Below, piece by piece: positions 25,901 to 28,441 of a DNA stretch of 33,896 bases (the stretch's first letter is position 1; the number at the start of each line of letters is the position of its first letter). Under the pieces are notes generated by a model, which was not told where the DNA came from, made no database searches, and saw only the letters and a list, made by a program, of their open reading frames with translations. The position numbers and the translations under genes were made by a program. The stretch comes from Candidatus Kuenenia stuttgartensis (lineage in GTDB: Bacteria > Pseudomonadota > Alphaproteobacteria > SMXS01). The stretch is taken from contig CALQFM020000046.1 in NCBI GenBank assembly GCA_943329845.2, positions 1 through 33,896 on the forward strand. The letters run 5' to 3'.

Positions 25901-26311
25901 ATGGCGGATACCACGATTGCCGACGAGTTGGCCGTCCGTGGCACGATCGAGCGCTATTCGGACGCGGTCTGCCGCCACGACGCCGCCGCGATCGAGGCTC
26001 TTTGGGCCGAAGACGCCCGCTGGAGCGTGCCCGACATGCCCGAGCTGGCAGAGGTGAAGGGCAGGGCGGCGATCATGGAGAAGTTCCGGGCGGCGCAGGC
26101 GTTCTTCCCGTTCACCTTCCTGATCTGCGTGCCCGGCTACATCGAGATCGCCCAGGACCGCGCCGTCGCGCGCAGCTACACCACCGAAATCATCCGCGAC
26201 CGCGACGGCAACACCCGCCGCGCGGCCGGCGTCTACGAAGACGTGCTCGCCAGGCGCAACGGCAGGTGGCTGTTCACCGAGCGGGTCTGGCGCCTGCTGG
26301 ACGCCGCGTAG
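25901..26311 (+). CDS. SnoaL-like / NTF2-fold protein
   Basis: A 136-residue NTF2-fold protein. It opens with DELAVRGTIERYSDAVCRHD, continues with ALWAEDARWSVPD and KGRAAIMEKF, and closes with AAGVYEDVLARRNGRWLFTE, the standard SnoaL-like order. GAGGAAGG precedes the ATG. The interval to the divergent VOC gene is about 136 bases and includes a T-rich stretch. Similar proteins are frequent in steroid and terpenoid catabolic regions, but no catalytic role can be read from the residues. Confidence 0.83.
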   Translation: MADTTIADELAVRGTIERYSDAVCRHDAAAIEALWAEDARWSVPDMPELAEVKGRAAIMEKFRAAQAFFPFTFLICVPGYIEIAQDRAVARSYTTEIIRDRDGNTRRAAGVYEDVLARRNGRWLFTERVWRLLDAA

Positions 26312-26340
26312 GCGACGGCCTTTGCTCTTGTACGCCGCAG

Positions 26341-26369
26341 TATAAGATGTATATTAAATATATCTTATA
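26341..26369. promoter_or_regulatory. NsrR-like operator (nitric-oxide-responsive palindrome)
   Basis: A 29-base palindrome with 24 of 28 paired positions symmetric, in an otherwise GC-rich region. Its core is AAGATGTATAT, a central T, and AAATATATCTT (26344-26366). Each 11-base half agrees at 10 of 11 positions with the known NsrR half-site AAGATGYATTT, at the known spacing. It ends 12 bases before the start codon of a haemoglobin-DUF1971 gene, and both haem proteins and DUF1971/TehB-type genes are known NsrR targets. No nsrR gene lies in this window. Confidence 0.75.
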
Positions 26370-26381
26370 GAGGCCTGTCTC

Positions 26382-27077
26382 ATGGACCTGCACGATACCC
26401 TTTCCGAAGAACGCCTTGCCGAGCTTGTCGACCGCTTCTACGCGAAGGTCCGCGCCGATGCGACGCTCGGCCCGCTGTTCAACCGCTCGGTCGACGACTG
26501 GCCGCATCATCTCGACAAACTGGCCGCGTTCTGGTCATCCGTGATGTTGACCAGCGGCCGCTACAAGGGCAATCCGGTGGCCGAGCACGTCAAGCACATC
26601 GGCGCGATCACGCCGGCCATGTTTGATCGCTGGCTCGCGCTCTGGACCGAGACAACCTCGGAGCTGTTCGATCCCGAGACCGCCCGGCAGTTTCAGGAAA
26701 AGGCCGGCCGCATCGCCGAGAGCCTGCAGCTTGCCCTGAAGTTTCATCGCGGAATCCCCACGGTCGCCAACCCGGCGCGCCCGGCGGCGCTCAGCGATAC
26801 GCCGTACCGTTCGACGGCGGTGTTCGATCAGGAGTCCCTGCCCGGGGCGTTGCGGCGCGAACACCGGACCAAGGCGGGGACGTGGGGCGTCATCCGCGTA
26901 TTGTCCGGCACGTTGCGGCTGCATATGGCCGCGAGCGGCGAGGTCGAGGAGTTGTCGGAAGATCATCCCGGCATTGTCGCGCCGGAGCAGGCCCATTGGG
27001 TCGAGCCGCTCGGCCCCTTCCGCATGCAGGTCGACTTCCACGATGCGCCACCGGCCGTGGCGCGGCCGGGAGGCTGA
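26382..27077 (+). CDS. Group III truncated haemoglobin fused to DUF1971
   Basis: A 231-residue two-domain protein. Residues 1-125 or so are a group III truncated haemoglobin: VDRFYAKVRADATLGPLF carries the B10 tyrosine (Tyr20), LAAFWSSVML is the E-helix region, and His69 or His72 in PVAEHVKHIG is the candidate proximal haem ligand before FDRWLALW. Residues about 135-225 match DUF1971 (TehB N-terminal-like cupin): LPGALRREHRTKAGTWGVIR, LSGTLRLHM and IVAPEQAHWVEPLGPFRM. The fusion suggests NO or peroxynitrite chemistry linked to a small-molecule-binding cupin. GAGG lies 8 bases before the ATG, directly after the NsrR-like palindrome. A ferredoxin follows after 1 base. Confidence 0.88.
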   Translation: MDLHDTLSEERLAELVDRFYAKVRADATLGPLFNRSVDDWPHHLDKLAAFWSSVMLTSGRYKGNPVAEHVKHIGAITPAMFDRWLALWTETTSELFDPETARQFQEKAGRIAESLQLALKFHRGIPTVANPARPAALSDTPYRSTAVFDQESLPGALRREHRTKAGTWGVIRVLSGTLRLHMAASGEVEELSEDHPGIVAPEQAHWVEPLGPFRMQVDFHDAPPAVARPGG

Positions 27078-27078
27078 C

Positions 27079-27378
27079 ATGACCTATGTCGTCACCGAGG
27101 CCTGCATCGGCGTAAAGGGCGAGGGATGCATGGAAGTCTGCCCGGAATACGCGATCTTCTCCGAGCCGGCGGACGACATGTCGTTCATCGATCCGAACAA
27201 ATGCACGGATTGTGGCGTGTGCATGGCGGCCTGCGTCGTCGGCGCCATCTATCCGGGCAACGCGCTGCCGGCGTCCTCGCGCGAATTCCTCGCACTCAAC
27301 GACTACTGGTTCAAGCACAAGACCGGCGTTCGCGCCCGCGTGCACGAGATCGGCGTCGCCCTCAGCCAGCTGGTCTAG
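27079..27378 (+). CDS. 7Fe-type ferredoxin (3Fe-4S/4Fe-4S)
   Basis: A 99-residue ferredoxin of the FdxA type. Cysteines 9, 17 and 52 fit the [3Fe-4S] ligands and cysteines 21, 42, 45 and 48 the [4Fe-4S] ligands: VTEACIG, EGCMEVCP, and KCTDCGVCMAACVVGAI. The extra cysteine usually found at about position 12 is Val. The C-terminal tail is the usual extended one (YWFKHKTGVRARVHEIG). GGGAGG precedes the ATG, which is 1 base past the haemoglobin stop, so the two share a transcript under the NsrR-like site and this may be an electron donor for the haem domain. The stop shares a CTAG with the opposing dehydrogenase. Confidence 0.92.
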   Translation: MTYVVTEACIGVKGEGCMEVCPEYAIFSEPADDMSFIDPNKCTDCGVCMAACVVGAIYPGNALPASSREFLALNDYWFKHKTGVRARVHEIGVALSQLV

Positions 27379-28334
27379 TAGCCGGCATCCCGATTGATCG
27401 GGTTGAGCAGCTCCCGGCCGCTCTGGAAGCGCCGGATGTTCTCCACGATCAGTCCGCCGATGGCGTCGAATGGATTGCCGCCCTTGCCCCATGACATGTG
27501 CGGCGTCAGGCGCACCCTGGCATGGCTGTAGAACGGGTGGCCGTTGGGCAGCGGCTCCGGATCCGTGACGTCGAGCGTCGCCATGCGCAGATGGCCGCTG
27601 TCGAGTGCTTCCAGCAGCGCGTCCTGGTCGACCATGGGGCCCCGCGCGATGTTCACGAAATGCGCGCCCTGCTTCATCCTGGCGAACGCCTCCCGGTTCA
27701 TCATCCCGCGCGTTTCCGGTGTCAGTGGCGCGGCCAGCACCAGATGATCCGACTGTGCCAGCACCTCGTCGAGCGTCGCGTAGCTGGCGGCCGAGCCTGA
27801 CGGCAACAAGCCGCTCCGGCTGGTCGCCAGCACCCTGGCGCCGAATGGCGCTGCGCGCTGCGCGACAGCCTGGCCGATGGTGCCGAAGCCGATGATGCCG
27901 ACGGTTTTGCCTTCGATGGTGCCCAGCGGATTCTGCTGCATGTGGTGCCACTCGTCGCCCTTGTCGATCCACGCCTCGGGAAAGCGCTTCTCCAGCGCCA
28001 GGATGCTGGCGACGGCGAACTCGGCGATGGCGTTCGACTGGGTGCCACGGCCGCAGGTGGCCTTCGCCACCTCCCAGACCCACTTGGGATAATCGTCCAC
28101 GCCGGTCGACACCGCCTGTACCCAGCGCAGCCCGAACGGCCAGCCCGCCGGCTTCTCCGGCGGATAATAGACGCCGCCATGCGGCGGCAGCAGGATCATC
28201 GCGGTTGCGTCCGCTGGCACCTGCCAGTGATCGGGCGCCTTCGGCGTACCGGCGAGCGCGACGCCCTCCGGCAGCTTGGGTTCCAGCTGGCGCACGATCC
28301 CGTCGGGCAGGTGATGGGCGATAACGAGGGTCAT
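27375..28334 (-). CDS. D-2-hydroxyacid dehydrogenase family protein
   Basis: A 319-residue NAD-dependent 2-hydroxyacid dehydrogenase. The Rossmann loop is VGIIGFGTIGQAVA; the catalytic residues are Arg in NIARGPMVDQ, Glu in TDPEPLPNG and His in LTPHMSWG. The N-terminal region (LLPPHGGVYYPPEKPAGWPF) differs from the first hydroxyacid dehydrogenase of this window, so they are not a recent duplication. The start is the ATG at 28334 with GGGAG about 6 bases upstream; an in-frame ATG at 28364 is less well placed. Substrate not deducible. Confidence 0.9.
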   Translation of the reverse strand: MTLVIAHHLPDGIVRQLEPKLPEGVALAGTPKAPDHWQVPADATAMILLPPHGGVYYPPEKPAGWPFGLRWVQAVSTGVDDYPKWVWEVAKATCGRGTQSNAIAEFAVASILALEKRFPEAWIDKGDEWHHMQQNPLGTIEGKTVGIIGFGTIGQAVAQRAAPFGARVLATSRSGLLPSGSAASYATLDEVLAQSDHLVLAAPLTPETRGMMNREAFARMKQGAHFVNIARGPMVDQDALLEALDSGHLRMATLDVTDPEPLPNGHPFYSHARVRLTPHMSWGKGGNPFDAIGGLIVENIRRFQSGRELLNPINRDAGY

Positions 28335-28441
28335 GAGACGCTCCCAGGATTTGAACTGGGCCACACTCTAGAAAATTCACGCGTGCTTGCGCCAGAGCGT
28401 TCTACTATCGTCCCGCGCGGTAACGTCTCGGGGAGGATGGC

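Follow-up and report, generated by a model that had tools for sequence, protein, structure and literature searches.

A predicted NsrR-type operon encoding a fusion of a group III truncated haemoglobin with DUF1971 and a 7Fe-type ferredoxin

Results

Organization of the locus

The DNA analysed here, to which we refer as the window, is a stretch of 33,896 nucleotides that constitutes contig C46 of a genome labelled G000 (3.68 Mb in 107 contigs, with an estimated completeness of 100%). On its plus strand lies a gene (26382-27077) for a protein of 231 amino acids, in which a group III truncated haemoglobin domain (residues 5-119; 26394-26738, plus strand) is fused to a DUF1971 domain (residues 143-217; 26808-27032, plus strand). 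A single base separates the stop codon of this gene (27075-27077) from the ATG at 27079 of a second gene on the same strand (27079-27378), which encodes a ferredoxin of 99 amino acids, apparently of the 7Fe type. A convergent dehydrogenase gene (27375-28364) shares its last bases with the ferredoxin stop codon, where the operon should therefore end. No sigma-70-type promoter match was found for the operon. Directly upstream of the fusion gene, on the same strand, is a SnoaL-like gene (25901-26311); another one (1070-1540 of locus L008) occupies the same position relative to the hcp gene of this genome, and the two are 42% identical to each other.

The fusion gene is preceded by an imperfect palindrome of 29 bases (26341-26369, no strand), in which two arms of 12 bases, complementary except for one mismatch, enclose a middle of 5 bases; 24 of its 29 positions are self-complementary. 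Its end is separated by 12 bases from the fusion ATG at 26382. The 23-base core (26344-26366, no strand), AAGATGTATAT-T-AAATATATCTT, has the 11-1-11 organization of a predicted NsrR-like operator, and each of its halves matches AAGATGYATTT at 10 of 11 positions. A preliminary description of this DNA had presented the element in these terms, and a re-reading of the sequence bore out the palindrome, the half-site matches and the spacing. The published NsrR consensus is gATGyAT-N5-ATrCATc (PMC1274295). The site directly before the fusion gene fits this consensus, agrees with the NsrR pattern at 20 of 22 scored positions, and resembles the 11-1-11 sites of E. coli. It lies in an AT-rich stretch (32% G+C at 26335-26375 versus 66% for the window). 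In the window the NsrR consensus was matched once, with 2 mismatches, and in 100 dinucleotide shuffles it was not matched at all. The view that the palindrome is remarkable by symmetry alone was rejected, as 12 of 30 first-order Markov windows hold a 29-mer scoring 24/29. As an NsrR consensus match the site is unusual against chance; as a mere palindrome it is ordinary.

Domains of the fusion protein

The N-terminal part of the fusion protein (residues 5-119) matched the Campylobacter group III truncated haemoglobin 2ig3 with an E-value of 1e-16, and the protein also matched TehB (3m70; E-value of 2.8e-5). In Pfam, the DUF1971 model (PF09313) was matched with 71.2 bits (E-value of 7.1e-20), well above its cut-off of 23.1. 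The assignment of the globin class rests on 2ig3, because the Bac_globin model (PF01152) yielded 20.4 bits and thus fell below its Pfam cut-off of 21. This assignment is consistent with the alignment of 25 globin sequences (8 fused, and 17 chosen from 51 unfused), in which the putative haem-pocket residues F19, Y20, H43, W51, H69 and W84 are invariant. From the alignment with 2ig3, we take Y20 to be TyrB10, H43 to be HisE7, H69 to be the proximal histidine and W84 to be TrpG8. In the DUF1971 domain, H161 and H205 are invariant in all 21 aligned sequences (8 fused and 13 chosen unfused).

An AlphaFold2 model computed from a 38-row alignment (mean pLDDT of 92.6, pTM of 0.62) predicts two well-defined domains connected by a weak linker, with pLDDT values below 50 at residues 130-134. 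Foldseek searches returned TehB (3dl3 and 3m70), the group III truncated haemoglobin 2ig3 and the E. coli protein P64488 (3bb6), which we take to be YeaR, followed by vitamin K carboxylases. Cupins were matched at E-values of about 1e-3, after the closer TehB/YeaR matches. The fusion of a group III truncated haemoglobin with a DUF1971 domain resembling the TehB N-terminus, as first described, was thus confirmed by the matches to 2ig3, TehB and Pfam DUF1971.

The ferredoxin

The ferredoxin reading frame matched the 7Fe ferredoxin 1bc6 with an E-value of 6.5e-16, and the cysteine pattern read from its sequence is C-x7-C-x3-C ... C-x2-C-x2-C-x3-C. The seven cysteines and the structure match agree with the initial naming of this gene as one for a 7Fe ferredoxin. 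The protein reached 68.6 bits with the NCBIfam model FdxA_Protbact (NF045490), for which the cut-off is 135; it is probably a divergent relative and not FdxA proper. Other matches in the same genome were 47% identical (over residues 1-90) and 49% identical (over residues 1-61).

The preliminary description had raised the question whether fusion and ferredoxin are also neighbours in related genomes. This holds for four of the eight fusions that we found (G000, G006, G007 and L033) and does not hold for the other four; at 51 unfused globin loci no such ferredoxin was adjacent. In L033 the pair is flanked upstream by a gene for cation efflux and downstream by one for an amidase, and these flanks differ from those in the window. 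The nearest relative of the operon ferredoxin outside such an operon within the order is 66% identical and is encoded in genome G001 (L122, 1450-2996). Its gene adjoins one for the alpha subunit of a Rieske ring-hydroxylating oxygenase, not a globin gene, which suggests a ferredoxin subfamily of private oxygenase donors.

An NsrR-like regulator is encoded in the same genome

Five Rrf2 genes are present in the genome of the window. The product of one of these (C9:10667) had S. coelicolor NsrR as its best match among solved structures (5n07; E-value of 2.4e-23). It contains three cysteines (C-x7-C-x5-C) and the equivalents of Asp8 and Arg12 of S. coelicolor NsrR, of which Asp8 is the fourth cluster ligand and Arg12 its salt-bridge partner (PMC5411485). 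Thus, the NsrR ligand set of three cysteines and Asp8 is complete in this protein. We nevertheless call it only NsrR-like, because it remains below the NCBIfam cut-offs for both NsrR (NF008240; 113 bits, cut-off of 182) and RirA (125 bits, cut-off of 193), with the RirA score exceeding the NsrR score. The absence of an NsrR-type regulator would have spoken against the original proposal; such a gene is present, judged by the match to 5n07 and the ligands, and with the NCBIfam cut-off missed.

Orthologues of this regulator with 76-91% identity were found in G002, G003, G004 and G006. In G005, a 45% identical relative is encoded beside the fusion, and its NsrR score is higher than its RirA score (141 versus 131 bits, both below cut-off). 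No orthologue was found in G007, but the contig is incomplete at this point. The G007 globin contig ends 88 bases past the NsrR-like site, about 26 bases after the point at which nsrR starts in G006, and a true lack of nsrR in G007 is therefore not upheld: it is probably an assembly gap.

NsrR-like sites adjoin NO-related genes

The genome scan for further NsrR sites that had been proposed at the outset was performed with consensus patterns of up to 3 mismatches, not with a weight matrix. In the genome of the window this yielded three places, each of them beside NO genes, and the reversed pattern yielded none. Besides the fusion-ferredoxin operon, these are a site at C9:10583, which lies in the gap between the divergent genes for the NsrR-like Rrf2 regulator (C9:10667) and a truncated globin that we read as belonging to group I, and a site at C17:1033, located 45 bases before the hcp reading frame. 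Since the pattern had been widened to fit the site in the window, only the other two places count as independent. A site precedes the group I globin gene in all six genomes that have an orthologue of at least 82% identity, with scores of 16-20 of 22; this count leaves out the 40-41% identical relatives in G008 and G009.

A second pattern, allowing up to 2 mismatches and applied to 10 genomes of the order, detected 8 distinct sites in 5 genomes, and its reversed control detected none. All 8 sites adjoin a fusion gene, a group III globin gene, an nsrR/globin pair or hcp. This pattern is not exhaustive, because it misses the hcp site of G000. In the hcp frame of G000 itself (L008 343-987; contig C17, minus strand), similarity to Hcp stops at around codon 150, close to the start of the contig, through either an assembly error or a real break; the hcp frame of G007 stays open for at least 485 codons.

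Conservation of the site upstream of fusion genes

The fusion was identified in eight genomes, namely G000, G004 (locus L013), G005, G006, G007, L033 (a 'Porphyrobacter' MAG), L034 (Novosphingobium arvoryzae) and L035 (a Novosphingobium MAG). Within 260 bases upstream of the fusion gene, the best site scored 20 of 22 in G000, 13 in G004, 18 in G005, 19 in G006, 20 in G007, 20 in L033, and 10 in both L034 and L035. Accordingly, an NsrR-like site precedes five of the eight fusions, in all five close to the start codon, and is absent from G004, L034 and L035. Its conservation upstream of orthologues, on which the first reading depended, thus extends to the majority of the fusions.

When six upstream regions were aligned (from the five fusions and from G003, whose gene encodes the globin only), 22 columns were invariant, of which 14 belong to the site and three to the start codon. 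Positions 10 and 14 of the G006 site change as a complementary pair, and position 17 changes alone. When unfused genes were included, 40 of 59 globin loci had a site scoring at least 15/22, compared with 11 of the 1,403 control windows taken from these loci. L031 and L032 had been dropped before loci were counted (same contigs as L011 and L010), as had L014 and L084, which contain no globin gene.

G004 carries nsrR, yet has no site at its fusion. In L034 and L035 the site is missing and no Rrf2 match closer than 37% was found. In the L033 MAG, which may be incomplete, the site is present and no nsrR orthologue was found, the single Rrf2 gene being of the SUF type. The site-less fusion gene of G004 (L013 701-1333) is divergent from folE, the gene for GTP cyclohydrolase I.

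Fusions without an in-frame stop codon are rare: a draw of 385 genomes from the class yielded 4 genomes with such a gene, each from the genus of the window, and a draw of 398 from the phylum yielded 1, namely that of the window itself. In the globin tree the fused label requires 3 changes, of which 2 are forced by well-supported branches, at a stage when the bootstrap had not settled. The fused state occupies two separated branches and has therefore arisen more than once, or has been lost again.

Neighbourhoods of unfused genes

At the 51 unfused globin loci, an nsrR-like gene was found within 2 kb in 36 cases, in 35 of these on the opposite strand. A DUF1971 gene was found within 2 kb at 22 of the 51 loci, a number that may be inflated by locus selection because one of the two peptide patterns used to find loci was derived from DUF1971. 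As contigs end within several of the 59 loci, the neighbour counts for these are minimum values. An even draw of 385 genomes from the class was also inspected; in at least 11 of the 101 matching genomes, genes for a group III truncated haemoglobin and DUF1971 lie within about 1 kb on one contig, this being a count by eye and a lower bound with at most seven candidates scored per genome. The two genes are thus side by side in many genomes, so that the fusion joins two frequent neighbours, and globins of this kind seem to have had DUF1971 as a partner for a long time.

In Reyranella L037 (4366-6043), an nsrR-like gene is followed by a divergent group III truncated haemoglobin gene, behind which an alternative oxidase, DUF1971 and then a methyltransferase are encoded; this arrangement resembles a broader alphaproteobacterial NO-response cluster. 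In G005, the fusion gene is located between the divergent nsrR-like gene and a same-strand gene for the flavohaemoglobin Hmp. In the Reyranella MAG L073 (3947-4663), globin and DUF1971 share one frame with a single TAG between them and an ATG right after it. This is a natural near-fusion, one step before or after fusion.

In Sphingopyxis granuli TFA, the SGRAN_3394-3396 operon, which is divergent from nsrR, was 142- to 229-fold up-regulated with an NO donor, and the SGRAN_3393-3396 region, the most NO-induced operon there, is described as protein transport with an unclear function (PMC6472365). In all 10 loci titled Sphingopyxis, an nsrR-like gene is divergent from a group III truncated haemoglobin gene, and the SGRAN operon may for this reason be a misannotated operon of this kind. 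We do not count it as evidence, because L044, the one Sphingopyxis locus inspected closely, has two globin genes and not three genes.

Discussion

We consider it reasonably probable, at roughly 60%, that the fusion and ferredoxin genes form an NsrR-repressed and NO-induced two-gene detoxification operon, in which the ferredoxin re-reduces the haem after NO removal. Judged from homology and the site, the co-transcribed genes would be kept off by an NsrR-like Fe-S regulator bound to the palindrome directly before the start codon. NO would destroy the cluster of this regulator and thereby free the operon, so that fusion protein and ferredoxin are made. The predicted product is a group III truncated haemoglobin connected by a flexible linker to a DUF1971 beta-barrel of the TehB N-domain/YeaR type, and it would be accompanied by a dedicated 7Fe ferredoxin. 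The ferrous haem would bind O2 or NO and remove NO, whereupon electrons could pass from a general ferredoxin reductase via the ferredoxin to the haem. The regulatory half of this mechanism, which rests on genomic evidence and published NsrR biology (PMC1274295, PMC5320621, PMC5411485), is most likely correct. The regulator gene and the conservation of the site lend sequence-based support to the NsrR-type control and NO response proposed in the preliminary description. Several findings weigh against the reading as a whole: three of the eight fusions lack the site, one of them in a genome that carries nsrR (G004); no nsrR orthologue was found in L033, which does have the site; the regulator scores below both NCBIfam cut-offs and higher as RirA than as NsrR; four fusions have no adjacent ferredoxin gene; the G001 relative of the ferredoxin is encoded next to a Rieske oxygenase; no sigma-70-type promoter match was found; and the related globins of H. 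pullorum and C. jejuni have little NO phenotype (PMC5577044).

That the ferredoxin acts as the haem reductant is a good guess by analogy. It is helped by an operon of glbN and a ferredoxin reductase gene in Legionella and by the finding that no Hmp was detected in G000, G006 (only 78% complete) and G007. That the ferredoxin simply replaces Hmp is not upheld by G004: this genome encodes the fusion but lacks the operon ferredoxin, and there too Hmp was not found except for a match to its reductase part.

The main rival assumes the same NsrR control, but assigns the ferredoxin to another co-regulated enzyme, above all Hcp, with the fusion using a different reductant. This is conceivable, although we regard it as unlikely. 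In G000, G006 and G007, the three congeners with the operon ferredoxin, hcp is preceded by an NsrR-like site, and elsewhere among bacteria hcp shares operons with a gene for a ferredoxin-like protein (PMC1274295). However, only one base separates the fusion and ferredoxin genes, and this adjacency is kept in the distant MAG L033 between other flanking genes. Moreover, a match between the sets of genomes with hcp and with the ferredoxin was not established, the hcp coverage leaving out G004, G005 and L033.

Rather unlikely is a role of the globin as a sensor of NO or O2, or in handling peroxide or peroxynitrite, with DUF1971 as its effector domain. Group III globins indeed show weak NO phenotypes: an H. 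pullorum trHb mutant was not more sensitive, C. jejuni Ctb gave no NO protection, and H. pullorum TrHb reacts with NO much more slowly than the single-domain haemoglobin of the same species (PMC5577044). The two invariant histidines of DUF1971 and its resemblance to cupins, after the closer TehB/YeaR matches, would also suit such a role. On the other hand, the G005 fusion is encoded next to Hmp on the same strand and behind an NsrR-like site, and overexpression of H. pullorum TrHb confers protection on an E. coli hmp mutant (PMC5577044), both of which fit NO removal by the globin better.

It is more doubtful still that the site is read by a RirA- or IscR-like Rrf2 regulator, so that the operon would answer to iron or redox state and not to NO. 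The higher RirA than NsrR score of the C9:10667 regulator, with both scores under the NCBIfam cut-offs, would be in line with this idea. It is opposed by the fit of the site to the NsrR consensus and its resemblance to E. coli sites, by the Asp8 and Arg12 equivalents in the regulator, by the NO genes beside all three genomic sites, and by the regulator beside the G005 fusion, which scores higher as NsrR than as RirA, though below both cut-offs. Lastly, it is improbable that the ferredoxin belongs to a cytochrome P450 (29741-30913; PF00067, E-value of 5.2e-27) encoded 2.4 kb downstream, or to another oxygenase as the Rieske neighbour of its G001 relative might suggest, since an accidental place behind the fusion gene is hard to reconcile with the recurrence of the pair in L033 between cation efflux and amidase genes.

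Beyond the NsrR-controlled operon as such, we tentatively consider that DUF1971 and group III haemoglobins work together, and that the fusion with its private 7Fe ferredoxin could be a three-part NO-removing system without the flavin reductase of Hmp; this is possible rather than probable. We know of no function for DUF1971. A search of the open PMC literature, with subscription papers, preprints and other names outside its scope, returned no report of DUF1971 together with hemoglobin or with NsrR; DUF1971 itself is named in a single paper of this set.

Several known systems share parts of this arrangement. NsrR regulons, among them that of E. coli CFT073 (PMC5320621), have in common with it the 11-1-11 operator and an Rrf2 regulator with Fe-S ligands, and their targets include hcp, globins and tehB/yeaR-type genes, as well as aox in V. 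fischeri; the excerpted descriptions mention neither a globin-DUF1971 fusion nor a globin-ferredoxin pair (PMC1274295, PMC5320621). Hmp is an NsrR-controlled haemoglobin of other bacteria and adjoins the fusion in G005, but carries its own FAD/NAD reductase. E. coli YeaR and the N-terminal domain of TehB have the fold and family of the C-terminal domain of the fusion and are not fused to a globin. The yeaR gene is an NsrR target, and its expression in an E. coli mutant went up 160-fold during anaerobic growth with nitrate, an NO source (PMC5320621). C. jejuni Ctb and H. pullorum TrHb belong to the globin class of the fusion and are induced by nitrosative stress; however, 2ig3 (127 amino acids) has no fused domain, and C. 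jejuni Ctb is controlled by NssR and has little NO phenotype. The Legionella glbN-ferredoxin reductase operon is the predicted sole NsrR target there (PMC1274295, PMC3820574), and there, too, a truncated globin and a distinct electron-transfer protein are encoded together. Its globin is of the cyanoglobin type (GlbN) and its partner a reductase, with no mention of DUF1971 in these excerpts, whereas the window encodes a 7Fe-type ferredoxin.

The types of regulator, operator, globin, DUF1971 and ferredoxin are therefore already known, and it is the covalent globin-DUF1971 fusion and its pairing with a ferredoxin that are new. Group III truncated haemoglobins are induced by nitrosative stress, yet the two studied by mutation gave little or no protection (PMC5577044), and an absent partner may explain this apparent inactivity of the globin alone. 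As the natural fusion comes with a candidate reductant gene and an NsrR-type switch, the roles of both domains become directly testable, and the operon provides a concrete lead on the roles of DUF1971 and of a little-understood globin class.
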